DNA of 64,000 bases, from contig CAMQVH010000008.1 in NCBI GenBank assembly GCA_947038155.1, forward strand, positions 50,925-114,924. The letters run 5' to 3'. This DNA is from an uncultured Bacteroides sp. (GTDB taxonomy: Bacteria; Bacteroidota; Bacteroidia; Bacteroidales; Bacteroidaceae). Shown piece after piece: positions 4,327 to 27,267 of the stretch. How positions within the stretch are numbered: position 1 is the stretch's first letter; every line of letters begins with the position of its first letter. The notes beneath the pieces are model-generated. The model searched no databases. It worked only from the letters and a program-made list of their open reading frames with translations, and was not told the origin of the DNA. The translations under genes and the position numbers were made by a program.

Positions 4327-6780
4327 ATGACAGACGAAAGAAATATTTCTACCGACAACATTGAAGCGGAACAGGAGATTGATTTAATAGCACTTTTTTT
4401 TAAATACTTTTTTTATTGGCGTTGGTTTGTTACTGGCGTATTAGTATGTTGTATAGTAACCTACCTGTTTCTACGTTATCAAACGCCAGTATATAAAATC
4501 ACCAGTTCGGTACTGATTAAAGAAGAAGACAAACGTGGTGGATCTGTAGCTAATCCATTAGCCGCCATCCAAGATTTAGGTATGTTTTCTATGACGAACA
4601 ATTTTAATAATGAAGTAGAGATATTAAAATCTCGTTCATTAATAAAGAAAGTAGTGAATGATTTAGGACTATACATCCGAACATCAGAAAAACGTCCGTT
4701 CGGCTATGCGATTCCACTTTATCAAAATACTCCGGTGAGGGTTTATATGACTCCTGAGGAAGCAGAAAATCTGAAAGAATCGATAAAACTAGATATCACT
4801 TACACGAAATCCGGTAAGCTATCAGCTAAGGTTGAATATGCATTGAATGATGAGAAACAAGAGGTAGAGCAATCTTTTGATCAATTACCAGCTGTATTCC
4901 CGACTCCAGTGGGCGTGTTAAGTTTTACACAAGGGGATTCTTTATATATGAAGAATAATGAGGTCAATTTGATTGCAACAATTAACACACCTACTGAAAC
5001 CACTGAGACTTATATGAAGGACCTGAGTGTAACGGCATCGTCTCAAACAACAACTATCGCAAAGATTAGTGTTAAAAATACGGTGAAAGAACGAGGTGTG
5101 GATTTCATTAATTGTCTAGTAGCTATCTATAATCAAGATGCTAATGATGAAAAAAATGAAGTGGCGCAAAAGACGGCAGAATTTATTGAAGAGCGGATAG
5201 GCATCATTAATCATGAATTAGGTAGTGCAGAAAGTGAACTGGCAGATTTCAAACAGCGATCTGGTTTAACGGATTTGACGAGTGATGCTCGCTTGGCTTT
5301 ACAAGAGAGTTCAAAATATGAGCAACAGAGCACGGAGAGCGCTACTCAGATTCGTCTGGTGCAATTCTTGCGTACTTATATTAATGATCCTGCAAATCAA
5401 GATGAGGTAATTCCTGCAAACGTAGGTTTACAGGATCCGAATCTAACGCGGGTAATTGAGCAATACAATACAATGATCATCGAACGAAAGCGGCTGTTGC
5501 GGACTTCGTCAGATAGTAATCCAGCGGTAATTAATATGAATACGGGGATTGAGGCAATGCGACGTAATGTTCAGACAACTGTGAACAGTGTCTTACGTGG
5601 CTTACAGATTACACAAACGGATATTGAACGACAAGCAAGCAAATTTGAGAGCCGGATCAGTAATGTTCCAAAACAGGAGAAAGAGTTTATGACAATCTCC
5701 CGGCAACAAGAGATTAAAGCGACACTGTATATTATGTTATTACAGAAACGGGAGGAAAATGCGATAACTCTCGCTTCTACGGCTAATAACGGTCGAATTA
5801 TTGAGGAACCATTAGCTGCTAAAGATCCGGTTGCTCCGAGAAAGTTATTCTTTTTTCTAGCAGCTTTGGTAATCGGTTTGTTTATTCCTGTCGTTATAAT
5901 CTTCGTTGTAGAGTTGTTGAAATATAAAATAGAAAACCGGGGTGATGTGGAGCTACTAACAGATGTGTCCATTCTGGGTGAGCTACCATTAAGTGACGTG
6001 CATTCGGGAAAAGGAGCTATTGTGGTACGTGAGAATAAGAATGATATTATGGAAGAAACTTTTCGGGGACTACGTACTAATCTGCTCTTTATGCTGAATA
6101 AGGATCAAAAAGTGATTTTATTTTCCTCTACACAACCAGGTGAGGGGAAATCTTTTGTGACAGGTAATCTTGCAGTCAGTTTGGCCTATCTGGGAAAAAA
6201 GGTTGTTGTGGTAGGTATGGATATCCGGAAACCAGGTTTGAATAAAGTGTTCGACCTATCTAAAAAGTCAGAGGGTATCTCTAATTATTTAATGGATCCG
6301 GAAGGTATTAATCTTTTTAATTTGGTAAGAAGTTCTGGCATTAGCCCGAATTTGGACATTCTTCCTGGTGGATCAATCCCTCCAAACCCGACAGAACTAG
6401 TGGCTCGTGATGCATTGGAGAAAGCTATTGATTTATTAAAAGCACGTTATGATTATATACTATTAGATACTGCACCGATTGGTATGGTGACTGATACGGC
6501 AATTATCGGTAGAGTAGCAGATATGTGTGTCTATGTTTGTCGAGCAGATGTAACCTCAAAAGCTGGTTTCTCTTATATCAATGTTTTGCGTGATGAAAAG
6601 AAGTTTGATAAACTGGCGATAGTGATCAATGGAATTGACCTGAACAAGCGCAAAAATACTTATGGATATGGCTATGGTAAAAAATATGGTTACGGCTATG
6701 GCAAGAAATATGGTTATAGATATGGCTATGGGTATGGATATGGTTATGGTTTCGAAGCAGAGATTAAGAAAAAGAAATAG
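4327..6780 (+). CDS. Wzc-like chain-length/tyrosine-kinase protein
   Basis: Wzz-type N-terminus; BY-kinase 'SSTQPGEGKSFVTGNLAVSLAYLGKKVVVVGMDIRKPGL' and 'YDYILLDTAPIG'; Tyr/Gly-rich C-terminal tail. Confidence 0.95.
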   Translation: MTDERNISTDNIEAEQEIDLIALFFKYFFYWRWFVTGVLVCCIVTYLFLRYQTPVYKITSSVLIKEEDKRGGSVANPLAAIQDLGMFSMTNNFNNEVEILKSRSLIKKVVNDLGLYIRTSEKRPFGYAIPLYQNTPVRVYMTPEEAENLKESIKLDITYTKSGKLSAKVEYALNDEKQEVEQSFDQLPAVFPTPVGVLSFTQGDSLYMKNNEVNLIATINTPTETTETYMKDLSVTASSQTTTIAKISVKNTVKERGVDFINCLVAIYNQDANDEKNEVAQKTAEFIEERIGIINHELGSAESELADFKQRSGLTDLTSDARLALQESSKYEQQSTESATQIRLVQFLRTYINDPANQDEVIPANVGLQDPNLTRVIEQYNTMIIERKRLLRTSSDSNPAVINMNTGIEAMRRNVQTTVNSVLRGLQITQTDIERQASKFESRISNVPKQEKEFMTISRQQEIKATLYIMLLQKREENAITLASTANNGRIIEEPLAAKDPVAPRKLFFFLAALVIGLFIPVVIIFVVELLKYKIENRGDVELLTDVSILGELPLSDVHSGKGAIVVRENKNDIMEETFRGLRTNLLFMLNKDQKVILFSSTQPGEGKSFVTGNLAVSLAYLGKKVVVVGMDIRKPGLNKVFDLSKKSEGISNYLMDPEGINLFNLVRSSGISPNLDILPGGSIPPNPTELVARDALEKAIDLLKARYDYILLDTAPIGMVTDTAIIGRVADMCVYVCRADVTSKAGFSYINVLRDEKKFDKLAIVINGIDLNKRKNTYGYGYGKKYGYGYGKKYGYRYGYGYGYGYGFEAEIKKKK

Positions 6781-6781
6781 T

Positions 6782-7984
6782 ATGAGAAATATTTTATTTA
6801 GTCCTCCTGATATTACGGAGGTAGAAATTAACGAAGTAGTTGACGCATTGAAGTCTGGTTGGATTACAACAGGACCTAAGACTAAAGAATTGGAACGAAT
6901 GGTTGCAGAATGTTGTCATACATCAAAGGCTGTTTGTTTAAATTCAAATACAGCATGTGCTGAGATGACTTTACGAATATTAGGTGTGGGGGCAGGGGAT
7001 GAAGTGATAGTTCCGGCTTACACATATACAGCTTCTGCCAGTGTTATAGAACACGTTGGAGCGACTCTTGTAATGGTTGATTGTGAACCGGGAAAATTTA
7101 CAATGGATTATGAAAGATTGGAAGCTGTAATTACTGAGAGAACTAAAGTTATAATTCCTGTAGATTTATTTGGAATTCCATGTGATTATGATAGGATTTT
7201 TGATATTGTAGAGCGGAAGAAAGGATTATTTAATCCAAGTGATAATAGCATTCAACAGGCTATAGGAAGAGTGATAGTTATGGCCGATGCAGCCCATTCT
7301 TTTGGTGCTTTTTATAAAAAACGTCCTATAGGGTCGATTGCGGATTTTACTAATTTTTCTTTTCATGCAGTTAAGAATCTTACAACTGCAGAAGGAGGAG
7401 CTGTAGTTTGGAGGGATATTTGTAATATTGATAATAATGAGTTATATCATAAATATATGCTGTTGAGTCTGCATGGTCAAAGTAAAGATGCGTTGGCAAA
7501 AACAAAATTAGGAGTATGGGAATATGATATCTTAGGACCATGGTATAAGTGTAATATGACGGATGTATGTGCGGGAATAGGTTTAGGACAGATGAGAAGA
7601 TATAATCAGATTTTAACTCGCCGGAAAGAAATAATTAATCGTTATAATACGGCTTTCGCTGATCTTCCTCTTTCTGCAGTGACACATTATACAGATAGCT
7701 ATACATCTTCAGGACACTTGTACATTGTGAAATTAGATGGATGTGGAGCGGAACAAAGAGATAAGTTTATAGAAAACATGGCGGAGCTTGGTGTGGCTAC
7801 AAATGTTCATTATAAACCTCTCCCTATGCATACTGGATATCAGAAACTTGGGTTTAGAATAGAAGATTATCCAATGGCTTATGAACAGTTTAAAAATGTG
7901 GTAACATTACCTTTACATACTTGCTTATCAGATGAGGATGTGGACTATGTGATAGAATGTGTGGGAAAATGTTTAGAACAATGA
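6782..7984 (+). CDS. DegT/DnrJ/EryC1/StrS PLP-dependent sugar aminotransferase
   Basis: 'VCLNSNTACAEMTLRILGVGAGDEVIVPAYTYTASASVIEHVGATLVMVDCE', 'FTNFSFHAVKNLTTAEGGAV'; start MRNILFSPPD at 6782. Confidence 0.93.
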   Translation: MRNILFSPPDITEVEINEVVDALKSGWITTGPKTKELERMVAECCHTSKAVCLNSNTACAEMTLRILGVGAGDEVIVPAYTYTASASVIEHVGATLVMVDCEPGKFTMDYERLEAVITERTKVIIPVDLFGIPCDYDRIFDIVERKKGLFNPSDNSIQQAIGRVIVMADAAHSFGAFYKKRPIGSIADFTNFSFHAVKNLTTAEGGAVVWRDICNIDNNELYHKYMLLSLHGQSKDALAKTKLGVWEYDILGPWYKCNMTDVCAGIGLGQMRRYNQILTRRKEIINRYNTAFADLPLSAVTHYTDSYTSSGHLYIVKLDGCGAEQRDKFIENMAELGVATNVHYKPLPMHTGYQKLGFRIEDYPMAYEQFKNVVTLPLHTCLSDEDVDYVIECVGKCLEQ

Positions 7985-8628
7985 AAAATGTTTTGTACAA
8001 GAAATATATAAAGCGGTGCTTGGATTTTATTCTCGCATTAATAATCTTACCATTTGTTTTGCTTTTAATCATTGTCATGACTCCTATTATTTATATCTCC
8101 GATCCTGGTCCGATATTCTATCGTGGATTGAGAAGAGGTATTGGTGGAAAAGCCTTTAAAATGTTTAAATTCCGTTCTATGTATGTCAACTCGCCTGATA
8201 TAAGGAATCAGGATGGATCGACGTTCAATGGTGATAATGATCCAAGAGTAACAAAAGTTGGTAAGTTTATGAGAAAGACCTCTATAGATGAGATTCCGCA
8301 ACTGCTAAACGTTTTGATAGGAGATATGAGCTTTGTAGGTCCGAGACCTACTTTGGCATCAAAATCATTTGATGAAGTTGAGATGGAGAGAAAGAAGCGA
8401 TATGATGTGAGACCTGGTATTACAGGTTATGCACAAGCTTATTATAGAAATTCTATCTCACAGAAAGATAAGTTTATTTATGATTTACATTATGTAGATC
8501 ATGTTTCGTTTCTGCTGGATTTTAGAATAATATTAAAAACAGCTTTATCAGTGTTGAAGCATGAAAATATTTATGTTTCCAAAGAAAAAACTATGATTGG
8601 AGGTAATGCTAAGGGAGGAGACTTATAG
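7969..8628 (+). CDS. Initiating sugar-phosphate (polyprenyl-phosphate) transferase
   Basis: 'KRCLDFILALIILPFVLLL', 'FKFRSMYV', 'GKFMRKTSIDEIPQLLNVLIGDMSFVGPRP'; start 7969 or 7981. Confidence 0.93.
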   Translation: MFRTMKNVLYKKYIKRCLDFILALIILPFVLLLIIVMTPIIYISDPGPIFYRGLRRGIGGKAFKMFKFRSMYVNSPDIRNQDGSTFNGDNDPRVTKVGKFMRKTSIDEIPQLLNVLIGDMSFVGPRPTLASKSFDEVEMERKKRYDVRPGITGYAQAYYRNSISQKDKFIYDLHYVDHVSFLLDFRIILKTALSVLKHENIYVSKEKTMIGGNAKGGDL

Positions 8629-9807
8629 ATGAAAAGATTATTAATTATTGGAGCGTCTATTCTTCAATTACCAGCTATTTTAAAAGCCAAAGAGTTAGGG
8701 TTATATGTGGGTGTAGCAGATTTTAATCCGGAAGCAATGGGGATTTCTTATGCTGACGAATATTTCAATGTAAGTACGATAGACGAATTTGGTGTTTACC
8801 AAGTAGCGAAAGAGTTTAAGGCTGATGGCATCATGACACTTGCTACTGATATGCCGATGCGGGCTGTTGCTTACGCTACACAAAAATTGGGCCTTGTAGG
8901 AATTACTTATGATACTGCAGTTAAGGCAACTGATAAAGGAGAGATGATAAAAGCGTTTGAATCTTCAGGCGTGGAGCATCCATGGTATTATATACTTCAA
9001 ACGCCGGAAGAATTGGGTACGGTAATTCAAAAGATCACATATCCTTGTATCAGTAAACCCGTAGATAATGCAGGTAGTAGGGGAGTCATGTTGGTTGAAA
9101 GCAGTAAAGAATTAGAGAACGCAGTTCGATATAGTTCATCAAATGGACGGAATGGAGAAGTAATTATTGAGGAGTATCTGCAAGGTGATGAAGTAAGTGT
9201 TGAGATCATGGTTATTGATGGTGATGTCCATGTGTTGCAGGTTACGGATAAACTGACAACGGGAGCACCTCATTTTGTGGAGATGGGACACAGCCAGCCG
9301 AGTCGTTTAGGCGATGAAAATGTGGAGGTAATTAAGGATTTGGCTATAAGAGCGGTGAAGGCTGTTGGTATTGATAGGGGACCTGCTCATGTTGAAATTA
9401 TGTTGACTTCCAAAGGGCCGAGAATGATTGAACTGGGGGCTAGAATGGGAGGAGATTGCATTACCACTCACCTTGTTCCACTATCTACGGGGATTGATAT
9501 GGTAAAAGCAACAATACAAATAGCGTTGGGAGAAAAACCTAATATTGTGCCGGAGTTTGAAAAAGGAGCCGCGATACGCTATTTAAAGGAGAAATATGGT
9601 ATTATTAAAGGTATTTCGGGTATTGATATTGCAGAAAAAATTGATGGTGTTAAACAAATAACACTTGTTAAAACATTAGGAGATAAGGTTGGGGAAATTG
9701 GCAGTAGCATTGATCGTATGGGGTATGTGATTACTCAGGCAAGTACTGTAGACGATGCTGTTATCTGTTGTGAGAATGCAATAAAACAAATAGTCATTAC
9801 TATTTAA
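8629..9807 (+). CDS. ATP-grasp carboxylate-amine ligase
   Basis: 'YPCISKPVDNAGSRGVMLVESSKELENAV', 'VIIEEYLQGDEVSVEIMV', 'GPAHVEIMLTSKGPRMIELGARMGGDCITTHLVPLSTGIDMVK'. Confidence 0.9.
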   Translation: MKRLLIIGASILQLPAILKAKELGLYVGVADFNPEAMGISYADEYFNVSTIDEFGVYQVAKEFKADGIMTLATDMPMRAVAYATQKLGLVGITYDTAVKATDKGEMIKAFESSGVEHPWYYILQTPEELGTVIQKITYPCISKPVDNAGSRGVMLVESSKELENAVRYSSSNGRNGEVIIEEYLQGDEVSVEIMVIDGDVHVLQVTDKLTTGAPHFVEMGHSQPSRLGDENVEVIKDLAIRAVKAVGIDRGPAHVEIMLTSKGPRMIELGARMGGDCITTHLVPLSTGIDMVKATIQIALGEKPNIVPEFEKGAAIRYLKEKYGIIKGISGIDIAEKIDGVKQITLVKTLGDKVGEIGSSIDRMGYVITQASTVDDAVICCENAIKQIVITI

Positions 9808-9856
9808 GAGTTTTGATTATTTGATTTGAGAATATGATATAAAAAGGAGTATTATC

Positions 9857-11128
9857 ATGAATTTGAGAGGAAAACGTCTTTTGTATATTGGAGGTAGTGC
9901 ATCAGTAACTGATATTGCAAGTTATACAAAAGCAAATGGAATCAAATTGCTGACGGCTGGAAAAGTGATTTCTGATGAAATGATAGCTTTAACAGATGAA
10001 CAGTATGTGGTTGACATTTCTGATAGGGAATGTCTGAAAAAGATTGCGGTAGAGCAAAAAGTTGATGGTATATTAGTTATAGGTAATGAGGATATCATTA
10101 CTTGTGTGATTGATGTTGCAGAGAACATCGGACTTCAGTTCTATGTAAATAGAGAACAATGGACAGAGTTACAGGATAAGAGAAATTTCAAGAAGAACTG
10201 TATAAAACATGGCATTTCAGTAGTGGAGACATATGAATTGGCGGATAGCTGTGATACGGTACTAATTCCAATGAATGCCTATCCTGTAGTTTTGAAGCCT
10301 GCCGATAGTTGCGGATCAAAAGGTATTTCAATCTGTAATTCTAGCGAAGAAGTGAAACAGGCTATGCAGAAAGCAGAATCGTTTTCCAGGACAAAACGCT
10401 TTTTGTGTGAGAAGTATATGGACTGCCCCGAGATCACTATTAAATATTTATTTGATCGTGGTAGTATATATCTTTGGGAAGTAAATGATCGGTATGTTAA
10501 TCGAGAACAGAAAAACGTAGGTGCAATTGCTAATTGTACCGTATATCCATCGAAATATACAAAACTGTATTTGGATACTATGCATTCAAAAATGGTTGAA
10601 ATCTTTAATGAGTTTAACTTCTATAATGGAACGATGTTCATTCAGGCATTTGTGGATGGAGATGTTATTCGTCCCTATGATCCGGGTATTAGATTTTCCG
10701 GTGGATTATCGTACTTTATAACAGAATATGTTTTTGGTGTTAATCCTTTAGAGTTTATGATAAATGCAGCTCTTGTAGGGCAGATGTACTTGGGTGAAGA
10801 GAACCCTCTTGAGAAGATAAATGTGGATATGGACGGTAGATACATAGCGAATTATTCTGTTTTGGCAAAGGCTGGCATCATTTCAGAAATATATGGTATG
10901 GACACTGTCATGCAGATGCCGGAAGTTTTTAAATCATTGCAATTACTTAACATTGGTGATGAAGTGAGAATGGTAGGTACTTTGCAACAGGTATTTGCAA
11001 GATTTCAAATAGAAGCTAGAAGTAGAAAAGAACTGAATGAAGTAATAGTTACAATATATAATACCATTCAACTTAGAGGAGTAGATGGGGAAGATATGAA
11101 GCTTTATCAGAAAATCAATATTCTGTAA
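9857..11128 (+). CDS. Second, divergent ATP-grasp ligase
   Basis: 'YPVVLKPADSCGSKGISICNSSEEVKQAMQKA', 'FLCEKYMDCPEITIKYLFDRG'; AAGGAG upstream. Confidence 0.85.
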   Translation: MNLRGKRLLYIGGSASVTDIASYTKANGIKLLTAGKVISDEMIALTDEQYVVDISDRECLKKIAVEQKVDGILVIGNEDIITCVIDVAENIGLQFYVNREQWTELQDKRNFKKNCIKHGISVVETYELADSCDTVLIPMNAYPVVLKPADSCGSKGISICNSSEEVKQAMQKAESFSRTKRFLCEKYMDCPEITIKYLFDRGSIYLWEVNDRYVNREQKNVGAIANCTVYPSKYTKLYLDTMHSKMVEIFNEFNFYNGTMFIQAFVDGDVIRPYDPGIRFSGGLSYFITEYVFGVNPLEFMINAALVGQMYLGEENPLEKINVDMDGRYIANYSVLAKAGIISEIYGMDTVMQMPEVFKSLQLLNIGDEVRMVGTLQQVFARFQIEARSRKELNEVIVTIYNTIQLRGVDGEDMKLYQKINIL

Positions 11129-11141
11129 GGTATAGAAGATT

Positions 11142-12524
11142 ATGGAGAACTATACAAAAGCATTAGTGGATTTTGCTGCGGAAATCGAATATAGGGATCT
11201 GTCTCATAGTGTTATTGAGCAAACTAAAATGTTCATTGCAGATTATTATGCGGCGAGTCTGGCGGGGTATCGGGTTAATGGAAAGTTTAACTCAGTGGTA
11301 ATGGCTGTTCTGAAAGAAGAAGGAGGTACTGAGCAAGCATCCATATTGTTTGAAGAAAAGAAATATCCAATAAGTAATGCAGCTTTTATGAATGCAGTTT
11401 ATGCGCATGGTGCGGATATGGATGATGGTAATCGAAAATCTGGAGGACACATAGGAACACACATAATGTCTTCTGTCTTTGCATTAAGTGAAAAGTTGGA
11501 TGTGACTTGGAAGGATGTTATTGTTGCAATTAATATCGGGTATGATTTTTTCAACAGGGTAGCTGGGGCTGCACAACCAGGGCTTTATAGTAAGGGTTTT
11601 CATTCAACAGGAATTGCGGGTGCGATAGCTAGTGGAGCAGCCTGTGCCAAACTAATGGGGTTGGATAGAAATGGAATTTATAATAGCGTTTCTTTAGCTG
11701 CATTTCAGTCAAGTGGGTTAATTATTATAGATGAAAGTGGGCAAGGTTGTAAGCCTGTGAATCCTGCGAATGCAGCAAGAACAGGTGTAATTTCTGCTAT
11801 GATGGCTGAAAAAGGTCTGGTAACTCCTCGGAATCCATTGGAGAGTAAAAAAGGCTGGTTTCATGCTTTTACAGATCAAGTTAATGAAACGGTTCTTTTG
11901 GATGGTCTTGGTATAGATTTTACAATTTGTGAGAGTTATCTAAAACTATATCCAACTTGTCGTCATACGCATAGTTGCATTGACGCTGCTATAGAGATCA
12001 GGAAACAAATTTATGAAAGTAATTACCTCTTATATGATATAGAAAAAGTCTATGTTTTCGTGTATCCGAGTGCGATTAAGTCAGCAGGGACAATTAGCAA
12101 CCCACAATCACAAGAGGAAGCCAAGTTTTCGATTCATTATGCTGTGGCAACTGCCTTTAGTAAAGGCAACTTTTCCTTGGAGGATCTTGATACAGAAAAC
12201 CAAGATCATACCATAATAGATAATTTATCGAAAAAGATAGAGTTGATAATTGATGATTCAATGGAGAATAGAGAGAAAGGAATTCGAGGAGCTAGAGTGA
12301 AAGTAATTTTTTGTAATGGAAGAATTTTTGAGAAAACTATACTAATCCCAAAAGGTGAAGGGATCAATTCACTTAATTGGGATGATATACAAATGAAAAT
12401 GCAGGCATGCTCGCAAGGAATTGTTGAAGCAGAACAGGCAAGACTATTTGTAGAAAAGTGTCGATGTATTAATGATGATGATCGTTTTACTCCGATATTA
12501 TCATTTTTAACCAAAATAAAATAA
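11142..12524 (+). CDS. MmgE/PrpD family protein (2-methylcitrate dehydratase/aconitate decarboxylase-like)
   Basis: 'FIADYYAASLAGYRVNGKFNS', 'FMNAVYAHGADMDDGNRKSGGHIGTHIMSSVFALSEK', 'FHSTGIAGAIASGAACAKLMGLD', 'YPTCRHTHSCIDAAIEI'. Confidence 0.9.
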   Translation: MENYTKALVDFAAEIEYRDLSHSVIEQTKMFIADYYAASLAGYRVNGKFNSVVMAVLKEEGGTEQASILFEEKKYPISNAAFMNAVYAHGADMDDGNRKSGGHIGTHIMSSVFALSEKLDVTWKDVIVAINIGYDFFNRVAGAAQPGLYSKGFHSTGIAGAIASGAACAKLMGLDRNGIYNSVSLAAFQSSGLIIIDESGQGCKPVNPANAARTGVISAMMAEKGLVTPRNPLESKKGWFHAFTDQVNETVLLDGLGIDFTICESYLKLYPTCRHTHSCIDAAIEIRKQIYESNYLLYDIEKVYVFVYPSAIKSAGTISNPQSQEEAKFSIHYAVATAFSKGNFSLEDLDTENQDHTIIDNLSKKIELIIDDSMENREKGIRGARVKVIFCNGRIFEKTILIPKGEGINSLNWDDIQMKMQACSQGIVEAEQARLFVEKCRCINDDDRFTPILSFLTKIK

Positions 12525-12543
12525 CAAGGAAGGAGCAAAATCA

Positions 12544-13527
12544 ATGAAAGAAAATATAAAACTAATCCTCGGAACAATGACTTTCGGGGAACAAGTATTT
12601 GGTGAGGATGTAAAATGTATGGTTCAGAGTTATCTGAATCACGGTTATAAGGAATTGGATACAGCCTACGTATATAATGAAGGAGAGTGTGAGCGTTTGT
12701 TGGGGACAGCTTTGAAAGAATTGGATAGAGATACGTATAAAGTTGCAACAAAAGCAAACCCAAGGATTACCGGACGATTGGATAAGGAGGCAGTAATATC
12801 ACAGTTGAATGAATCATTGCAAAGGCTTAAAGTAAACTATGTAGATACCTTATATCTACATTTTCCAGATCCGGCAACACCTGTGAAATCTGTATTGGAG
12901 GGTTGTGCACAGCTTTATGAAGAAGGGAAATTTTTGGAACTGGGACTGAGTAATTTTCCCGCATGGCTGGTAGCCGAAGTTTGGCATATTTGTAAATCTC
13001 ATGGTTGGATGTTGCCCAAAGTATATGAGGGACTTTATAATCCGTTAAGTAGGCATGCAGAGCGGGAATTGGATAGAGCATTAAATAATTACGGTATGCG
13101 CTTTTATGCTTATAATCCTTTAGCTGGAGGAATGTTGACAAATAAATATTCCAGTCAAGACAAAACAATAAAAGCTGGTAGATTTATAAATCGGCCAAAT
13201 TATCAAAAACGTTATTGGAAAGATTCGTTCTTTGAAGCGATCGATCGCATAAAAGAAGTTTGTGCTGAACATAATATGAATATTGTAGAAGCGGTTTATC
13301 GATGGTTGGCATACCATTCAATGCTAAAAGTAGAGCGTGGAGATGGAATTATTATAGGTGCGTCGAGATTAGTTCAATTGGAGCAGAATATGGCAACGGT
13401 GGAAAAAGGTTCTTTGCCGGATGAGATAGTCGAGATTATTAATGATGCATGGGAAATAAGTAAAATGGATGCACCGGAATATTTTACATATTATGTCCCA
13501 AAAAGTAAAAACACAAAAGAAGTTTAA
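12544..13527 (+). CDS. Aldo/keto reductase (AKR7-like)
   Basis: 'LILGTMTFGEQVFGE', 'GYKELDTAYVYNEGECERLLGTAL', 'VDTLYLHFPDPATPV', 'ELGLSNFPAW'. Confidence 0.9.
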   Translation: MKENIKLILGTMTFGEQVFGEDVKCMVQSYLNHGYKELDTAYVYNEGECERLLGTALKELDRDTYKVATKANPRITGRLDKEAVISQLNESLQRLKVNYVDTLYLHFPDPATPVKSVLEGCAQLYEEGKFLELGLSNFPAWLVAEVWHICKSHGWMLPKVYEGLYNPLSRHAERELDRALNNYGMRFYAYNPLAGGMLTNKYSSQDKTIKAGRFINRPNYQKRYWKDSFFEAIDRIKEVCAEHNMNIVEAVYRWLAYHSMLKVERGDGIIIGASRLVQLEQNMATVEKGSLPDEIVEIINDAWEISKMDAPEYFTYYVPKSKNTKEV

Positions 13528-13531
13528 GAAT

Positions 13532-14665
13532 ATGATTAATCAAGAAATCTTTTTGCATACACTGCAGTTGGAAGGTGTGGAATTCTTCACCGGAGTACCA
13601 GATTCCTATTTGAATGGATTTTGTGACTATTTGTTAAGGAATATATCACAGGAAAAGAATGTTATAGCGGCTAATGAAGGAAATGCAATTGCCATAGCTG
13701 CCGGTCATTTTCTTGCTACTCAGGAGATTCCCCTTGTTTATATGCAGAACTCCGGATTGGGCAATACTATAAATCCTCTTGTTTCACTTGCTGATAAACA
13801 GGTTTATGCGATTCCTATGATTCTGTTGGTAGGTTGGAGGGGGCAACCGGGCACTGGAGATTGGGCACAACATGAACTTCAGGGAGAGATTACCCCCGGA
13901 TTATTGGATTTGATGCATATTCCGTATGATATCTTACCGGATGACAATGATAAAGTGACAGGCATTTTAAAACAGGCTGTTTCGCTGGCAAGGAGCAATC
14001 GGAAGCCTTATGCATTAATTGCTCCTAAAGGAGTGATGGCAGGAGAAAAAATGAATAACAAAGATCAAACATATCCTATGAGTCGTGAAGAGGCAATAGA
14101 GGTAGTACTTGATCATATGCCTGCTGATACGATTTATAGTGCAACAACAGGGCGTGCAACACGGGAATTATTCTTTTTGCGAGAAAAAAGAAATGAGAGT
14201 AAAAAAACAGATTTTTTGAATATTGGTTCTATGGGGCATGCTTCGTCAGTAGCTTTTGGTATTGCTTTGGCAAAACCTCAAAGGAAGGTGGTCTGCCTTG
14301 ACGGAGATGCTGCCGCAATGATGCATTTGGGAGCTATGACAATGTTGCATAAGTATAATGTACCGAACTATCTGCATATTATATTGAATAATGGAGCGCA
14401 CGAGTCTGTAGGTGGACAACCTTCAGCGGGACATTTGATTGACTTTACAAAAATAGCGGAATCTTGTGGATACAAGACTATAGGGCATCCCGTAACGACT
14501 CGGGAGGAACTGACTCAAGCTATTGAAATATTGGCTAAAGAGCCTTTTGCAGCATTCATTGATGTGCGGATTCATAAAGGGATGAGGGGAAAACTTCCAC
14601 CACTTGATTTTTCGCATAGAGAAGCCATTGATAACTTAATAAAAGAATTAAATAAGAAAGACTGA
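13532..14665 (+). CDS. Phosphonopyruvate decarboxylase-like ThDP-dependent enzyme
   Basis: 'GVEFFTGVPDSYLNGFCDYLL', 'ANEGNAIAIAAGHFLAT', 'GWRGQPGTGDWAQHELQGEIT', ThDP motif 'VVCLDGDAAAMMHLGAMTMLHKYNVPNYLHIILNNGAHESVGGQPSAG'; start MINQEIF at 13532. Confidence 0.88.
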   Translation: MINQEIFLHTLQLEGVEFFTGVPDSYLNGFCDYLLRNISQEKNVIAANEGNAIAIAAGHFLATQEIPLVYMQNSGLGNTINPLVSLADKQVYAIPMILLVGWRGQPGTGDWAQHELQGEITPGLLDLMHIPYDILPDDNDKVTGILKQAVSLARSNRKPYALIAPKGVMAGEKMNNKDQTYPMSREEAIEVVLDHMPADTIYSATTGRATRELFFLREKRNESKKTDFLNIGSMGHASSVAFGIALAKPQRKVVCLDGDAAAMMHLGAMTMLHKYNVPNYLHIILNNGAHESVGGQPSAGHLIDFTKIAESCGYKTIGHPVTTREELTQAIEILAKEPFAAFIDVRIHKGMRGKLPPLDFSHREAIDNLIKELNKKD

Positions 14666-14680
14666 AAGGTCAGGGAGGAT

Positions 14681-15592
14681 ATGAAAGTGAATAATAGTAT
14701 GGAACAAACAAGGGCCTTTTTGAAATCAATAGGTTTGCCGGAAGGTGATGCTTACAATTTGCCGACATCCATAAAGAGATTTGAAGATGGAGGTCAATAC
14801 CGTTTTGAAGTGCCTGGTATCCAGGGACCTAAAGTTATGCAAGCGTTGCTTGAAGCAATGGATGACTATGGAATCTGTCTGCATCGCGTAACACAGACAC
14901 AAGGTATCATGCGTTTGACTGATGATGAGATTGTTAGAATGGTAGAGTTGGCACACCAATGGAGTACAGACTTGATTTTGGCTATTGGTCCTCGTGCAAC
15001 TACCGATACTAGTGCGTCTGTCAATACTCCTGAAGGAGTCCGTATGGGGTATCGTCTTCGTGGTCAGGAGCAGATTGTACGCGCTGTAGAAGATGTGAAA
15101 CGTGCAGCCCGTTTGGGTTGTCGTTCTTTCCTTATTTATGATGAGGGGTGTTTGTGGCTGCTTAATGAAATGCGTAAAGCAGGAGAAATTCCGGAGGAAT
15201 GTCATTTTAAAGTTTCAGCACATGCCGGTCACGGTAATCCATGTTCTGCTAAGGTTTTGGAGAAGATTGGTGCAAACTCTATAAATCCGGTTCGTGATAT
15301 TCAGTTACAAATGCTGTCTGCAATGCGTCAGGCAGTAGATTGTCCTATTGATATTCATACGGAAAATCCAAAGTCGACAGGAGGCTTCATACGCCATTAT
15401 GAGGTTCCGGAGATGATTCGTATTGCAGCTCCGATTTATCTTAAGACCGGTGGATCGGTTGCGCAAACACATAGTTGGGATAGTACACAGGATGATGCAA
15501 GGAAGCGTGCGAAACAGGTTGCATTAGTTAAGAGAATAATTGACGAATACTATCCTGAAGCACTTTTGTCACCGAAAGGAAGCATTCGATAA
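14681..15592 (+). CDS. TIM-barrel protein, possibly U32-peptidase-like
   Basis: Repeating alpha/beta pattern: 'FLIYDEGCLWLLNEMRKAGEIP', 'HFKVSAHAGHGNPCSAKVLEKIGANSINPVRDIQLQMLSAMRQAVDCPIDIHTENP'; family call is from memory. GTG at 14687 is an alternative start with better SD spacing. Confidence 0.5.
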   Translation: MKVNNSMEQTRAFLKSIGLPEGDAYNLPTSIKRFEDGGQYRFEVPGIQGPKVMQALLEAMDDYGICLHRVTQTQGIMRLTDDEIVRMVELAHQWSTDLILAIGPRATTDTSASVNTPEGVRMGYRLRGQEQIVRAVEDVKRAARLGCRSFLIYDEGCLWLLNEMRKAGEIPEECHFKVSAHAGHGNPCSAKVLEKIGANSINPVRDIQLQMLSAMRQAVDCPIDIHTENPKSTGGFIRHYEVPEMIRIAAPIYLKTGGSVAQTHSWDSTQDDARKRAKQVALVKRIIDEYYPEALLSPKGSIR

Positions 15593-15620
15593 AAGAAATA
15601 TAAATAAAAGCAAAGAAGAA

Positions 15621-16760
15621 ATGAGACACCATAAATATAATCCGAATTTTGAGTTTATTGTAAAACCGGAAGAGTTTAACAAGTATTCGGATAAGGAAAT
15701 ACTCCAATATTGTCTTGGAGCGACCATGTATATGCCGGGGACAAAAGATTTTTCTCAAAAAATATTGGATAATGAAATACCGGGCTTAACTTCCATGGTA
15801 TTTTGTTTTGAGGATGCATGCCCAGAGAGCCAGGTAGAAGAAGCGGAAAGAAATGTAATTCATGTACTGGATGTACTTTCTACAGCTCTTGATAATGGAA
15901 AACTTACTTATGATAATTTACCACTTATTTTCTGTCGTGTCAGAAATCAGGAGCAGTTTATTCGATTTGCAGGGCAGCTCACAAAACACCATGTGAAGGC
16001 TTTAACAGGTATTAATTTCCCGAAATTCAATGCTCATAACGGAAACGTATATATGTTTTATTTGAAGCAACTAAATGAGAGGTTAGGGGATATCATCTAT
16101 GGAATGCCGATTATAGAAGACTCTGAAGTCGCATTTAGAGAGACGAGAATGACGGAATTGATTGGCATCAGAGAAATACTGGATAATTATAAGGATATAG
16201 TTTTGCAAGTACGAGTTGGTGCTACTGATTTTTCTTCTTGCTTTGGAGTACGTAGAGGAGTAGATTATTCTATTTACGATGTATTGACAGTCAGGGAAAT
16301 TTTATCTGATATTATTAATGTATTTGGAAGAAATAATGACTATGTGATCTCTGGTCCTGTATGGGAATATTTTCGTGTGAGTAAACAAATGATGTTCGAA
16401 CAACTTCCCAATTATGATATTGAAGACTGTCTGTTAAAAAGGATTCCTATTGTAAATACCGAAATTGACGGATTGTTGAGAGAGGTCGTTTTAGACAAGG
16501 CGAATGGTTTTGTAGGAAGAACTGTCATTCATCCATCTCACATTAAATATGTTAATGCGATGCAGGCTGTGACAAAGGAAGAATATCAAGATGCGATGAA
16601 TATTCTTAATAGTGACAAAGGAGGTGTTTTTAAAGGTGAAAGTGGTAATAAAATGAATGAAGTAAAACCTCATACAAACTGGGCGACCAAGGTGTATATG
16701 AAATCCCGAGCTTATGGGGTGATCGATAACGAAAATAGCTATATTAAGCTGTTCTCATAA
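15621..16760 (+). CDS. HpcH/HpaI-CitE-like C-C bond lyase (TIM barrel)
   Basis: 'GLTSMVFCFEDACPESQVEEAERN', 'VLQVRVGATDFSSCFGVRRGVDYSIYDVLTVREIL', 'GFVGRTVIHPSHIKYVNA'; start MRHHKYNPNF at 15621. Confidence 0.8.
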   Translation: MRHHKYNPNFEFIVKPEEFNKYSDKEILQYCLGATMYMPGTKDFSQKILDNEIPGLTSMVFCFEDACPESQVEEAERNVIHVLDVLSTALDNGKLTYDNLPLIFCRVRNQEQFIRFAGQLTKHHVKALTGINFPKFNAHNGNVYMFYLKQLNERLGDIIYGMPIIEDSEVAFRETRMTELIGIREILDNYKDIVLQVRVGATDFSSCFGVRRGVDYSIYDVLTVREILSDIINVFGRNNDYVISGPVWEYFRVSKQMMFEQLPNYDIEDCLLKRIPIVNTEIDGLLREVVLDKANGFVGRTVIHPSHIKYVNAMQAVTKEEYQDAMNILNSDKGGVFKGESGNKMNEVKPHTNWATKVYMKSRAYGVIDNENSYIKLFS

Positions 16761-16774
16761 ACGAAGGAGAAGCA

Positions 16775-17278
16775 ATGAAGACAATAACGACACCAATTTC
16801 AGAAGAAATGGCTAGTGATTTGCATGTTGGAGATATGGTTCTGATAACAGGTAAGATATACTGTGGACGTGATGCTGTACTCCCGAAAATTTGCAAGTTG
16901 ATAGAAAATGAAACTTTAGGTGAATACGATATTGATTTGCGGGGGAGTGTTATTTTTCATACAGCTGTTAGTCCGGCAGGAGTTGGGCCAACTTCCAGCA
17001 ATAAGTTGGAGATAGAGGAAAGTTTTCCCTTGCTTTCTAAAGCAGGAGTGAAAATGCATTTGGGAAAAGGAGTAATTGGGAAAAATACGATTACTGCACT
17101 TGATGAATATAATTCCGTTTTTGCAGTGATCCCCCCAGTCACGGCATTGCTTGGGGAGAACATGCTCTCGCAAAGACTGGTTGCTTTCCCTGAGTTAGGA
17201 ATGGAGGCATTTTATGAGTTGGAGGTAAAAGATTATCCAGCGATCATTGGCGCTGCACATAATGAAAGTATTTATTGA
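16775..17278 (+). CDS. Class-I fumarase / L-tartrate dehydratase beta-subunit-like protein
   Basis: 'DLHVGDMVLITGKIYCGRDAVLPKI', 'IFHTAVSPAGVGPTSSNKLEIE', 'HLGKGVIGKNTITAL'; AAGGAG upstream. Confidence 0.9.
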   Translation: MKTITTPISEEMASDLHVGDMVLITGKIYCGRDAVLPKICKLIENETLGEYDIDLRGSVIFHTAVSPAGVGPTSSNKLEIEESFPLLSKAGVKMHLGKGVIGKNTITALDEYNSVFAVIPPVTALLGENMLSQRLVAFPELGMEAFYELEVKDYPAIIGAAHNESIY

Positions 17279-17290
17279 GGAGGACAAGGC

Positions 17291-18145
17291 ATGAGGTATG
17301 ATGAAAGAATTGTAAATAGAGTATGCGAAACATTGGTTAGTTCCGGTTCGACTTTCCTTCCGGATAAAATAAGAGCATATGAGAAAGCAATCCAGAGCGA
17401 AACTAATGAACAGGCAAAGTGGGCGATGAAAGCTATTTGGGAGAATGCATTGGTTGCAAAAAAGAATAGAAGCCCTCTTTGTGACGATACGGGCATACCG
17501 CATCTGATATTAGAAGTAGGACCTGATAGGGTAGTGACTGGCAATATGCTGGAATCTATAAAAGAAGGAATAAGGCAAGGATTAAGAACATTACCAGGAC
17601 GCCCTATGGCAGTGAAAGGTGATGATAGCCACAGAATTGATCAGTCATTGGGGCTGGATGAGGATCCTGCCGCTTTGGAAGCAGCACCAATTTTGATTCG
17701 AAATATTGAAGATAATGTAATAAAACTTCATATTTTAATGTTTGGTGGTGGTCCTGCTATCAGAGGAAAAACTTATCGTGTTTTTCATAAGCATAATGTG
17801 CAAACAGTATTGGATGAGATTATATCATGGGCAACGGAAGGAACAACTATGCTCGGATGCACCCCATGTACTTTGGCTGTAGGTGTCGGTCGCTCTCATT
17901 ATGAGGCTTCGTCAATGATGCTTCAGGCTTTGGTTGATGGGACCTATGACAAACAGAACGACATGGAGAAAGAAATAACAGCTAGAGTAAATGCGGTTGG
18001 TGTAGGGCCTTTGGGATTAGGTGGCAATACTACTGTACTTGCTACTTTTATGAAAGTCGGTCCGCAAAGAGCCAGTGGTGTTCGTGTGGTGTGTATGCGC
18101 CCATGCTGTTGTGTTGAACCGAGAATTGCAATGGTGGAATTGTAA
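17291..18145 (+). CDS. Class-I fumarase / L-tartrate dehydratase alpha-subunit-like protein
   Basis: 'SPLCDDTGIPHLILEVG', 'MFGGGPAIRGKTYRVFHK', 'TTMLGCTPCTLAVGVGRSHYEAS', 'NAVGVGPLGLGGNTTVLATFMK'; GAGGAGG upstream. Confidence 0.92.
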   Translation: MRYDERIVNRVCETLVSSGSTFLPDKIRAYEKAIQSETNEQAKWAMKAIWENALVAKKNRSPLCDDTGIPHLILEVGPDRVVTGNMLESIKEGIRQGLRTLPGRPMAVKGDDSHRIDQSLGLDEDPAALEAAPILIRNIEDNVIKLHILMFGGGPAIRGKTYRVFHKHNVQTVLDEIISWATEGTTMLGCTPCTLAVGVGRSHYEASSMMLQALVDGTYDKQNDMEKEITARVNAVGVGPLGLGGNTTVLATFMKVGPQRASGVRVVCMRPCCCVEPRIAMVEL

Positions 18146-18200: not shown

Positions 18201-19208
18201 ATGCCAAAAGTATCGATTATTGTTCCTGTATATAACGCTGAGAAAACACTTTGTAAATGCCTTGATAGTTTGGTGGGGCAAACATACAGGGATATCGAAA
18301 TACTGCTTATAAATGATGGATCTTCTGATAATAGTCAGAAGATATGTGAGTCATATGCAAATAGATTTTCGGAGGTGCTATTAATCAATCAGAATAACTC
18401 AGGGCCGGCAACGGCACGTAACACCGGAATAAATCGTGCGAGAGGCAAATACTTGTCTTTTGTAGATGCTGACGATTATGTTGAGAGTAATATGATTGAA
18501 GAGATGATTAGTGTTGCGGAAGATAATCATGCAGAAATGGTTATTTGCGGGTATTATCAGGAGTTTTCAGAAACGATCAAAAAACACGAATTCTCTTATG
18601 CTCCTAGATTATATGTAGGAGATGAGTCAAGAAAAATAGCAAAAGAATTAATAAGTGATGTCTCTAATACCAGAATCCCGCCTTACTCTTGGATAAGGAT
18701 GGTTTTGAAAACTTCATTAGATAAGCCTGAAATACGATATGCCGCAGGAATGATACGAAGTGAGGATTATTATTTTTTTGTTCAACTTCATTTTCGCATA
18801 AATCGTTTGTTTTTGCTTACGGACAAACCGCTTTATCATTATATGGAGATAGATAGCTCCATAACTCATAGATATGTGCCTAAATATTGGAATTCTGTGA
18901 AAGAAATATACTTTGGGTTGAGGGATAGGCTTCCAAAAGACGAAGACATAACGAAGAGGCTGGATGTGATGCTTATTCAGCGTTCCCTGATAGCACTTAA
19001 TAATTCGGCAAGATGTAATAATAAGGATGTATTCAGAAAAGAAGTATATGAAATTGTCAGTGATGATGATCTTAAATCAGTTATATGCCGGATGAGAATA
19101 TCGGAAGGTGTCAGAAAATTCCGGGCTTATTATTTTTTAATGCGAATGGGTATGTATGTCGCTGTGTATTGGAGATTTCTGTTGAAATATAATAGAGAAA
19201 TGAAATAA
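18201..19208 (+). CDS. Glycosyltransferase family 2
   Basis: 'KVSIIVPVYNAEKTLCKCLDSLVGQTYRDIEILLINDGSSDNS', 'FVDADDYVE'. Confidence 0.95.
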   Translation: MPKVSIIVPVYNAEKTLCKCLDSLVGQTYRDIEILLINDGSSDNSQKICESYANRFSEVLLINQNNSGPATARNTGINRARGKYLSFVDADDYVESNMIEEMISVAEDNHAEMVICGYYQEFSETIKKHEFSYAPRLYVGDESRKIAKELISDVSNTRIPPYSWIRMVLKTSLDKPEIRYAAGMIRSEDYYFFVQLHFRINRLFLLTDKPLYHYMEIDSSITHRYVPKYWNSVKEIYFGLRDRLPKDEDITKRLDVMLIQRSLIALNNSARCNNKDVFRKEVYEIVSDDDLKSVICRMRISEGVRKFRAYYFLMRMGMYVAVYWRFLLKYNREMK

Positions 19209-19239: not shown

Positions 19240-20706
19240 ATGTTTAAAATAGATAAGAAAACTTTTAATTATATATTGTATTTTGGGGTAGCCTTTGGTG
19301 TGTGCGGAAGTTATATTCTGCTTACAGAAAGCTATTCATTACTAATTATCCTTCCATGTATCATTTTCTGCTTAGGGATGAAATATGCCTTAAGAGATTT
19401 TTACAATAATATTTTCTTGTTTTCGTTTCTGGTTTGTTTCTTTACCTTTTTATTAGGTGGTCAGGTTCTTAATAAAATTATGCATGTGTATGGTTATGAT
19501 TTTCCAGAAAAGATTGAGATACATACAGATTTTGTTTTATTGATAAGCTTAGTTGGATTACTATTAGGGTATATACTTGTTGATAAGACGAAGACGAAAA
19601 AGAAAAAAACTGTAAATCTTATTGATTATGATAGTGGTTATTACAAAAACGTGAGGAAAATAAGTAAATACTATTTTTATGCAACGTATTTTCTGTGGAT
19701 TCTAATTCTGTTAGATATTGTTCTTTATGTAGTACAGTATGGATATATTAATTACTATTTGTCATATTCGAGCAGAATACCTGCGGTTATGAGGGAAATA
19801 GGATATATGGCTCCAGCAGCATTGTTCATATATTTGGCTACAATGCCGAAAAAGAAAGAAGCAAAAATTCCAATAATTATGTACTCTATCTATCTACTTT
19901 TGTCGTTGGGGACAGGGAGACGTATTTATTTTATGACTGGCTTACTAGTAATTTTTGCTTATATGATGTTGCGGAATGTTATTCATCCGGAGGCAAAACC
20001 TTGGATCAGTAAAAAGAATATCATCAGGATTTGTATTGTAGTACCATTTTTGTTGATATTGATGTATTTGTTTGAATATATACGATCAGAAAATTATGTG
20101 GGGACTGCATCACAATACTCACCTTTATTCGGTTTTTTTGTTCGCCAGGGAACCTCAATTAATGTTATAAAATATACAGAACTATTTGAACTGAGGCTTA
20201 ATCCGGATGCTTATTATTCATTGTATAATACCTTGAGATGGCTACAAGACAGTTGGATTGACAAACTCTTGAATTTAGATATGTCATTTGCATTTGGAAG
20301 ACAATCACCGGAGACAGCAACAACAGGAACATATCTGGCAGATTTTGTTTCATATAATGCAAACTCCAATATTTACTTGGATGGAATGGGATACGGTTCT
20401 TGCTATATTGAGGAATTATATGTTGATTTTGGTTACATAGGAGTCTTTTTGGGTAATATGCTATATGGTATTTTATTATGCAGACTTTTGAAAAACTCAA
20501 TGCGAAAAGGTAATATATGGCTGATGGCGGTTGGATTGTTTATAATAGATGCGATATTTAAAGCACCTCGTGCCACTTATGATTCATTTTTTGGTCAGTT
20601 TCTATATTTTAATTCTTGGGGACCATTTTTGGTGGTTTTTCTTTTCGTCAATTTATATAGCAGACACGGTATAAGAAGTAACAAGTCTAATTGTGTTAAT
20701 GTTTGA
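19240..20706 (+). CDS. Oligosaccharide repeat-unit polymerase (Wzy-like)
   Basis: Multi-TM protein next to Wzx and GT; 'GMGYGSCYIEELYVDFGYIGVFLGNMLYG'; AGGAG upstream. Confidence 0.85.
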   Translation: MFKIDKKTFNYILYFGVAFGVCGSYILLTESYSLLIILPCIIFCLGMKYALRDFYNNIFLFSFLVCFFTFLLGGQVLNKIMHVYGYDFPEKIEIHTDFVLLISLVGLLLGYILVDKTKTKKKKTVNLIDYDSGYYKNVRKISKYYFYATYFLWILILLDIVLYVVQYGYINYYLSYSSRIPAVMREIGYMAPAALFIYLATMPKKKEAKIPIIMYSIYLLLSLGTGRRIYFMTGLLVIFAYMMLRNVIHPEAKPWISKKNIIRICIVVPFLLILMYLFEYIRSENYVGTASQYSPLFGFFVRQGTSINVIKYTELFELRLNPDAYYSLYNTLRWLQDSWIDKLLNLDMSFAFGRQSPETATTGTYLADFVSYNANSNIYLDGMGYGSCYIEELYVDFGYIGVFLGNMLYGILLCRLLKNSMRKGNIWLMAVGLFIIDAIFKAPRATYDSFFGQFLYFNSWGPFLVVFLFVNLYSRHGIRSNKSNCVNV

Positions 20707-20738: not shown

Positions 20739-22190
20739 ATGACTAAAAATAAATCGTTAGGTGTAAATGCTTTATTGAACGGGATACGAACAGTACTTAA
20801 TTTACTTTTTCCGATCATAACCTTTCCTTATGTGTCACGTGTTCTTCAAGTAGAGAATATAGGTAAGTATAATTTTGCATTGTCACTGAATCAATATTTT
20901 CTATTGATTGCTGCTCTGGGAATTACAACATATGCGATAAGAGAGGGAACAAAATATAGAGACCAGAGAAAAGAATTTGATCAGTTTGCCAGCGAGATTT
21001 TCTCTATCAATTTAGTGTCAACTATTGTAGCATATTTGCTTATGGTTATTTGTCTTATAACCGTTCCAAAGTTTTATAGTTACAGATTGATCATATTGAT
21101 ATTTAGTATTGAACTCATATTTACAACTATAGGTACCGAATGGATCTTCTCGATTTTTGAAGAGTATGCATATATTACGATTCGCAGTATTGTATTTAAG
21201 GTCGTTTCCATCATTCTATTGCTGGTTTTAGTAAGGAAACCAGAAGATTATATTATTTATGCAGGAATTACAGTTTTTGCGAATGCAGGATCAAATATCT
21301 TGAATTTTATTCATGCCAAAAAGTACTGTCAATTAAGAATTACATTAGATTGTAATTGGAGAAAACATATAGCTCCAATTCTGGTTATATTCGCATCAAC
21401 TATGGCTACCTCCATTTATGTGAATTCGGATATGACAATGTTGGGCTTCATGGCTACAAATTATGAGGTGGGCATATATTCTGTGTCATCTAAAGTTTAT
21501 AGGATAGTAAAAATGATGCTTTCATCAGTTCTTGTCGTGTCTATACCTCGATTGGCATTGTTAATGGGACAGAATCGTATGGGAGAGTATAAGAAAACTC
21601 TCATGCGGATATTTAATGTATTGACTATTTTGGTTCTGCCGGCTGTTGTTGGATTGTATTTACTAAGTAAAGAGATTGTTTTATTGATTTCGGATGCTAC
21701 ATATATTCAAGCAGTAACTTCTTTGCAATTGCTTAGCATTGCGCTTGCTTTTTGTATATTCGGGTGGATTTTTAATCAGTGTGTATTGATTCCGGCAAAA
21801 AAAGAGAAAATAGTCTTAATAGCAACGATTGTTAGTGCAATTGCAAATATTGTTATTAACTTCGTATTGATTCCGGTTTGGAAAGAAAATGCAGCAGCAT
21901 TTTCAACGGTTGTAGCAGAGGCTATTATGATGATTATTTGTTTATACTATGGATTGAAAGTTGTGAGACTGAATTCTGATGTAGTAAATAACATTGTGAC
22001 AGTTGCTTTGGGATGTATAGTGGTTTCACTTATCTGCATTCTAATTCGACAGCTTGGCATGCCTGATATTTTCACACTATGTATAAGCGTTTTTGCATCT
22101 GTTTTAGGATATAGCTTTTCACTAATTCTATTTAGGAATAGAATTGCATTAGAGTTCACAAAAAAGGTTTTTATAAGACTAAAAAAATAA
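20739..22190 (+). CDS. Wzx-like flippase
   Basis: 'LNGIRTVLNLLFPIITFPYVSRVLQVENIGKYNFALSLNQYFLLIAALGITTYAIREG'; polytopic. Confidence 0.93.
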   Translation: MTKNKSLGVNALLNGIRTVLNLLFPIITFPYVSRVLQVENIGKYNFALSLNQYFLLIAALGITTYAIREGTKYRDQRKEFDQFASEIFSINLVSTIVAYLLMVICLITVPKFYSYRLIILIFSIELIFTTIGTEWIFSIFEEYAYITIRSIVFKVVSIILLLVLVRKPEDYIIYAGITVFANAGSNILNFIHAKKYCQLRITLDCNWRKHIAPILVIFASTMATSIYVNSDMTMLGFMATNYEVGIYSVSSKVYRIVKMMLSSVLVVSIPRLALLMGQNRMGEYKKTLMRIFNVLTILVLPAVVGLYLLSKEIVLLISDATYIQAVTSLQLLSIALAFCIFGWIFNQCVLIPAKKEKIVLIATIVSAIANIVINFVLIPVWKENAAAFSTVVAEAIMMIICLYYGLKVVRLNSDVVNNIVTVALGCIVVSLICILIRQLGMPDIFTLCISVFASVLGYSFSLILFRNRIALEFTKKVFIRLKK

Positions 22191-22251
22191 GAAACAGCTG
22201 GATTTTTACCGCTAAAAGAAAATAAGCATGATCATTTGTTTTCATAAATGC

Positions 22252-22286
22252 AAAAATAAAGGTGGTTGAAAACCACCTTTATTTTT
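22252..22286. terminator. Bidirectional rho-independent terminator between convergent genes
   Basis: Perfect 16-bp stem AAAAATAAAGGTGGTT-gaa-AACCACCTTTATTTTT. Confidence 0.9.
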
Positions 22287-22304
22287 AATACCTATAAAAG
22301 ACTT

Positions 22305-26828: not shown

Positions 26829-26850
26829 TATTTTTGTCTGTCTATTTTTG
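26829..26850 (+). promoter_or_regulatory. Two tandem Bacteroides -7-like boxes (TATTTTTG) upstream of the GNAT-IbrAB operon
   Basis: TATTTTTG at 26829-26836 and 26843-26850; both match TAnnTTTG. Confidence 0.5.
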
Positions 26851-26856
26851 AATGCT

Positions 26857-27264: not shown

Positions 27265-27267
27265 ATT

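Follow-up and report, generated by a model that had tools for sequence, protein, structure and literature searches.

We analysed a stretch of 64,000 nucleotides (the window) from contig CAMQVH010000008.1 of an uncultured Bacteroides sp., in which nine genes at 8629-18145 are embedded in a Bacteroides-type capsule locus. Seven of them form a real conserved cassette, far beyond chance, which encodes in this order an MmgE/PrpD family enzyme, an aldo-keto reductase (AKR), a Ppd-like thiamine diphosphate-dependent (ThDP) 2-oxoacid decarboxylase, a TIM-barrel protein, a CitE-like C-C bond lyase (CCL) and the beta and alpha subunits of a class I fumarase-like hydratase (FumB and FumA). The set is conserved in at least 80 examined loci, which were fetched by their TIM-barrel gene and compared out of 251 found in one genome scan; it is anchored by a protein outside all Pfam and NCBIfam families and has no assigned product. 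We tentatively propose, as close to an even call, that the capsule repeat unit is decorated with, or incorporates, a short hydroxy-carboxylic acid made by the cassette and amide-linked to 2-acetamido-4-amino-2,4,6-trideoxygalactose (AATGal).

A conserved seven-gene cassette

All nine open reading frames (ORFs) are intact, on the + strand, near-contiguous and tightly spaced. They are flanked by the initiating sugar transferase on the 5' side and a lone family 2 glycosyltransferase (GT2) on the 3' side, just as the sequence-only reading of this DNA had described; in agreement with it, this is the one GT2 seen in the capsule locus and none further was found. The same reading had suggested searching for the gene order across genomes. 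After clustering of the neighbour genes with conservation weighting, the seven core genes were found contiguous, in exactly the order of the window and with short gaps, in 37 of the 80 loci. The adjacent pairs AKR-Ppd, Ppd-TIM, TIM-CCL, CCL-FumB and FumB-FumA each recur 55-66 times, with median gaps of -11 to 34 bases. TIM protein identity is 82-90% across the 80 loci, whose hosts are mostly Clostridia metagenome-assembled genomes together with some Spirochaetales, Victivallales and Kiritimatiellae, and the set is widespread among gut and rumen bacteria. Of 342 genomes sampled from the class to which a Lachnospiraceae host belongs, 12 gave a match, which in two cases was a remote U32 or carboxylase match. 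Within the order of the window's own host, the TIM gene occurs in one other genome among 394, which belongs to another family. This second Bacteroidales genome carries a reshuffled set inside a capsule locus (transferase, A1-like ligase, TIM, CCL, AKR, MmgE, Ppd, FumB, FumA, aminotransferase, dehydratase). One of the compared loci (L028, 8144-10007) has a gene of about 536 amino acids between Ppd and TIM in an otherwise intact cassette.

Enzyme families and the chemistry they suggest

The family calls of the sequence-only reading held for the two ATP-grasp ligases, MmgE/PrpD, AKR, Ppd, the CitE-like lyase and both fumarase subunits, all of which have Pfam or NCBIfam matches, but not for the "U32-like" TIM barrel. 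Likewise, small-acid chemistry as its overall theme fits enzymes of small-acid families with conserved catalytic residues. The MmgE/PrpD protein (11142..12524; PF03972 and PF19305, with IRG1 and IDS epimerase structures as matches) may be a dehydratase, epimerase or decarboxylase of a C4-dicarboxylate-type acid. The dicarboxylate-binding residues listed for this family are His88, Glu91, His102, His152, Lys202 and Lys266 (PMC12290011); in the window protein H89, H103, H154, K204 and K268 are conserved with matching spacing, and the Glu91 position is an Asp. The AKR (12544..13527; PF00248, E 3.6e-60) keeps D39, Y44, K70 and H106. FumB (16775..17278; Fumerase_C PF05683, TIGR00723) and FumA (17291..18145; Fumerase PF05681, fumarase 7xky at E 1.4e-22) supply both class I fumarase subunit domains together with the Fe-S cysteines, of which C64, C193 and C273/C274 are conserved in 71 alignment rows. 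The pair falls below equivalog level for fumarate or tartrate hydratase (PRK06246 110.6 bits with a cut-off of 276, PRK08230 68.8 bits with a cut-off of 365). For CCL (15618..16760; C-C_Bond_Lyase PF15617, 386 bits), the top Foldseek matches are the malyl-CoA lyases 4l9y and 4l80 with a target TM of 0.6-0.7, which indicates a malyl-CoA-lyase fold; R107/R109, E167 and D204 are invariant and are candidates for the catalytic Arg, Glu and Asp of the superfamily.

The hallmark of the cassette is the TIM-barrel enzyme (14681..15592). By sequence it had no match in Pfam, NCBIfam or the Protein Data Bank (PDB), and a PDB search with its profile likewise gave nothing credible. AlphaFold2 folds it as a TIM barrel (pLDDT 82, pTM 0.83; the remaining four models 57-67). 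Foldseek of this model returned many generic TIM barrels with a TM near 0.5, which are not diagnostic; class II aldolases came top and the U32 structure 5d88 ranked 18. A profile of the protein picks up a true U32 peptidase with an E of 8e-6. Membership in the U32 peptidases was nevertheless rejected: the Pfam U32 family model matches neither the protein nor its relative of 37% identity, and the U32 motif cysteines are absent (HTENPKSTGGF in the window against VHGALCMSYSGQC in the U32 protein of locus L098, aligned by eye). As modelled, the protein is thus a TIM barrel whose U32 kinship is remote.

The aldolase-like folds of CCL and the TIM protein, together with the ability of AKRs to reduce sugars, also fit an aldol-type pathway to a branched or higher-carbon sugar, with no acyl substituent and with the ATP-grasp proteins serving a separate modification. 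We consider this improbable, since characterised MmgE/PrpD and class I fumarase-type enzymes use di- or tricarboxylates, and the genes that take the place of AKR and Ppd elsewhere indicate 2-oxo acids. Ppd and AKR are present in most loci, and a separate group that lacks both has a substitute dehydrogenase: a D-2-hydroxyacid dehydrogenase occurs in 12 loci, 11 of them without Ppd (and also in L106 and L107), and an Ldh_2-type dehydrogenase in L008, L014 and L080. Ppd/AKR, D-2-hydroxyacid dehydrogenases and Ldh_2 enzymes all act on 2-oxo or 2-hydroxy acids. Since the dehydrogenase replaces Ppd and AKR in some polysaccharide loci, the most parsimonious reading is a shared core that works on a 2-oxo acid; this acid would become a hydroxy acid either by decarboxylation and reduction (Ppd and AKR) or by direct reduction. 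With end steps that can be exchanged in this way, the chemistry lends itself to direct tests on a few purified enzymes. In the pathway that we propose for the window, with the substrates and the order and direction of the reactions as its conjectural part, CCL, MmgE/PrpD, the fumarase-like hydratase and the TIM enzyme would build or remodel a small dicarboxylic acid by making or breaking C-C bonds, dehydration or epimerisation, and hydration, to give a 2-oxo acid; the Ppd-like enzyme would decarboxylate this to an aldehyde, and AKR would reduce the aldehyde to an alcohol, yielding an omega-hydroxy acid.

The Ppd-like protein (13532..14665) scores above the cut-off of the phosphonopyruvate decarboxylase model TIGR03297 (414 vs 312 bits), a family score that does not define substrate specificity. 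Besides, the host genome holds a PepM-Ppd pair on another contig, so that a true phosphonopyruvate decarboxylase, in a cassette making a phosphonate that other enzymes tailor, deserves mention. Such a reading would recall the 2-aminoethylphosphonate pathway, which likewise uses a Ppd-family decarboxylase and serves surface polysaccharide decoration; however, the window locus has no PEP mutase and its Ppd belongs to a separate cassette group. The lone PepM found in the host genome lies on contig C32 with its own Ppd, to which the window Ppd has 45% identity, against a median of 66% to the cassette Ppds, and PepM is close to the cassette in just two of the 80 loci (L010, with its own second Ppd, and L030). 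Because the PepM of the genome has its own Ppd and the cassette Ppds appear as a group of their own, phosphonopyruvate is an unlikely substrate. A phosphonate was therefore rejected as the main explanation, and we regard it as very improbable. The PepM itself (L003, G000:C32:2487-3338 and neighbours) is fused to a cytidylyltransferase-like domain and sits beside its own Ppd and an NTP transferase, probably as an aminoethylphosphonate decoration set.

The capsule side and a possible amide-linked acid

The capsule locus of the window encodes an AATGal-type pathway. A membrane-anchored, CapD-type dehydratase (1104..3047) matches the UDP-GlcNAc 4,6-dehydratase WlaL/PglF (phmmer against 5bju, E 2.6e-90), the PglF/UngD2 type found in PSA-type capsules, and would catalyse the first step to UDP-AATGal. 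Adjacent to the initiating transferase lies a sugar aminotransferase of the WcfR/Spr1654 kind (6779..7984, start inferred, with a longer ORF from 6662), again as in PSA-type loci; it matches Spr1654 (6ewj, phmmer E 6.4e-155), which is an AATGal aminotransferase (PMC5936713). The initiating phosphoglycosyl transferase (7957..8628; TIGR03025 C-terminal domain, 245 bits) has a presumed WcfS-like role. In Bacteroides fragilis PSA, it was demonstrated that the dehydratase and WcfR make UDP-AATGal and that WcfS loads it on the lipid (PMC13063421). With a PglF-like dehydratase and a Spr1654-like aminotransferase, the first sugar of the window's capsule therefore probably carries a free 4-amino group. 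The PSA locus shares with the window the UpxY antiterminator, the 4,6-dehydratase, the WcfR-type aminotransferase, the initiating phosphoglycosyl transferase and Wzx/Wzy. In contrast, its described pathway has several glycosyltransferases and neither an acid cassette nor an ATP-grasp ligase, whereas the window has one GT2 and an amine that we propose to be capped.

The cap would be attached by A1 (8629..9807), the first of the two ATP-grasp proteins that precede the seven-gene core. A1 is predicted to be a carboxylate-amine ligase (PF13535, PF18603), with the L-amino acid ligase BL00235 as its closest match (3vot, E 4e-36); only A1 combines the ATP-grasp with a LAL_C2 domain, and A2 (9857..11128; PF07478/PF13535, E 1e-9 to 5e-8) is more divergent. 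Given the AATGal-type genes and the kinship of A1 to an L-amino acid ligase, the most economical use of A1 would be to join a carboxylic acid to the 4-amine of AATGal as an amide, and the amide linkage that the sequence-only reading had imagined gains a plausible acceptor in the free amine that this pathway would supply. In the proposed sequence of events, the dehydratase and aminotransferase would make AATGal, the initiating transferase would put it on the lipid carrier, and A1 would activate the carboxyl group with ATP and link it to the 4-amino group, our candidate for the amide acceptor. Comparable neighbourhoods exist elsewhere: in L049, L050 and L054, a window-like aminotransferase (50-59% identity) and transferase (31-58%) adjoin the cassette, and the A1 of L054 is 61% identical to that of the window. 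Amide-linked acids have precedents: a 2,4-diamino-trideoxyhexose that bears (S)-2-hydroxyglutarate in 4-N-linkage within a disaccharide repeat, and O-glycosylated malate, both in Bacteroidota, as well as 4-hydroxybutyramido sugars (PMC3210612). The O-antigen of Flexibacter maritimus has a hydroxy-dicarboxylic acid on the 4-amine of a 2,4-diamino-2,4,6-trideoxyhexose in a disaccharide repeat, and that of Flavobacterium psychrophilum contains O-glycosylated amide-linked malate; yet malate and 2-hydroxyglutarate, the acids in question, differ little from central metabolites, and no link to the enzyme set of the window was found or tested. The single GT2 fits a short repeat and, more speculatively, would allow the acid to be part of the backbone. 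In line with the sequence-only reading, which knew of no described capsule with these enzymes, our literature searches for the combination found no description, and the papers searched did not tie the hydroxy-acid amide precedents to such a set.

Across the compared loci, the cassette is found in two genomic contexts. Of the 80 loci, 33 are flanked by ATP-grasp genes of the A1/A2 cluster and 16 have a DctM-like permease; one locus has both (two when all ATP-grasp clusters are counted). Recognised polysaccharide genes are present in 34 of the 41 loci that have an ATP-grasp gene and no permease, the "polysaccharide" label being approximate and the polysaccharide and permease contexts overlapping in part. 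These gene neighbourhoods suggest that the cassette feeds surface glycans of gut and rumen bacteria. A capsule substituent as its product, as first read from the sequence, is consequently backed by the recurrence of the set with ATP-grasp ligases in surface-polysaccharide loci, but the set is not capsule-specific, as the permease/LysR loci and catabolic distant relatives show.

Several observations weigh against a hydroxy acid made for the capsule. i) The same module stands beside the DctM-like permease in the 16 loci, often with LysR (a LysR gene is present in 10 loci); of these 16, at least L016 and L068 lack obvious polysaccharide genes in their vicinity. ii) The operons of more distant TIM relatives look catabolic. 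iii) MmgE or CCL is missing nearby in some loci (L011-L013, L071, L078). iv) The locus has no CoA-activating gene, and CitE-fold lyases usually use CoA thioesters. v) As in zwitterionic capsules, the 4-amine could stay uncapped, and A1 could have another site of action. The first two points are those expected if a clostridial organic-acid utilisation operon had moved whole into the capsule locus and still degraded an imported or internal acid, its ligase neighbours being incidental, an explanation that we find unlikely although it has to be taken seriously. Among the distant relatives, L100-L102 (TIM identity 54-59%) combine TIM, fumarase, malic enzyme and MmgE; the fumarase alpha subunit, tested in L100, is above the NCBIfam fumarate hydratase cut-off, and L100 additionally has Ldh_2 and a tricarboxylate-type transporter (read from the sequence). 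Such an operon probably encodes a hitherto undescribed route of acid degradation, from which the reaction of the TIM enzyme might be learned. L104 and L105 (74-77%) carry TIM, fumarase-like and CitE/CitF-type genes, with an iron-dependent alcohol dehydrogenase (Fe-ADH), MmgE and GlcD also in L104. The itaconate/methylsuccinate degradation cluster similarly joins an MmgE/PrpD isomerase with a CitE-like citramalyl-CoA lyase acting on small dicarboxylates, but it has a CoA transferase, a hydratase and an acyl-CoA dehydrogenase in place of fumarase, TIM, Ppd and AKR, and is purely catabolic. On the other side, the ATP-grasp and permease contexts are nearly exclusive, the window has neither permease nor regulator, its genes lie inside the capsule operon between the initiating transferase and GT2, and the reshuffling of the set within the capsule locus of the second Bacteroidales genome favours a function there. 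Moreover, polysaccharide genes, such as those for NeuB, GLF, a UDP-sugar dehydrogenase, a TagF-like protein and epimerases, are neighbours of at least five of the permease loci as well.

In L010, L027, L029, L057 and L061, the DctM-like permease and the cassette are directly downstream of polysaccharide genes; here the permease may import the acid or a precursor for use in the glycan. A TIM relative of 37% identity (L103, 8908-9846) lies beside genes read from sequence as PanB-like, FolD-like, formate-THF ligase-like and TRAP-type, which suggests a one-carbon-linked catabolic role for this sister family.

A capped amine would have consequences beyond the window. In genome screens, wcfR-type genes serve to predict zwitterionic capsules with immune-modulating activity (PMC10167101); should a ligated acid cap the AATGal amine in loci of this kind, the wcfR-based zwitterion predictions would be wrong for them.

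Origin of the cassette and surrounding genes

A tree of TIM, CCL and FumA places the window with Mediterraneibacter glycyrrhizinilyticus and two others (support 95-100, quick method). Based on this grouping, the seven-gene module was likely acquired from Clostridia by horizontal transfer, with Mediterraneibacter as its nearest kin. The smallest supported clade of the window is polysaccharide-associated, and 16 of the 17 rows of its starred clade have this label; over the whole tree, the context labels require at least eight changes. Since the operons of the distant TIM relatives have a catabolic look, the core chemistry probably arose in dicarboxylate breakdown and was then recruited or reversed in glycan loci. 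In this sense, an inserted catabolic operon, which the sequence-only reading had named as its refutation, is partly true of the origin of the set. A wider version of our proposal is rather doubtful as a whole: an undescribed pathway of gut and rumen Clostridia, occasionally captured by Bacteroidales, with a TIM-barrel enzyme of a new class and end steps that can be exchanged, whose acid would be new to glycans, amide-linked to AATGal and O-glycosylated in the backbone, so that a predicted zwitterionic capsule would be capped. No direct or inverted repeats of note were found at the cassette edges, and the viral contigs searched contained no relatives.

The window begins in the capsule operon, which comprises UpxY, a small UpxZ-like ORF, the PglF-like dehydratase, a BT0820-type HAD phosphatase, and export and chain-length genes, and continues with the sugar aminotransferase, the initiating transferase, the nine genes, GT2 (18201..19208; PF00535), the repeat-unit polymerase Wzy (19240..20706; TIGR04370 above cut-off) and a presumed Wzx-type flippase (20739..22190; by reading, no NCBIfam match at 1e-10). 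The dehydratase and every listed gene from the aminotransferase onwards are on the + strand. The starts of Ppd and the lyase are most likely near 13532 and 15618, because longer ORFs overlap the upstream genes. A tRNA-Glu that ARAGORN calls directly behind the capsule locus (22211-22307) is unusually long, with 97 bases, and may be a real insertion site or a false call. Further past the locus, at 26848-29111, genes that by reading look GNAT-type, PAPS-reductase-like and ParB-like resemble the IbrA/IbrB pairs of mobile elements.

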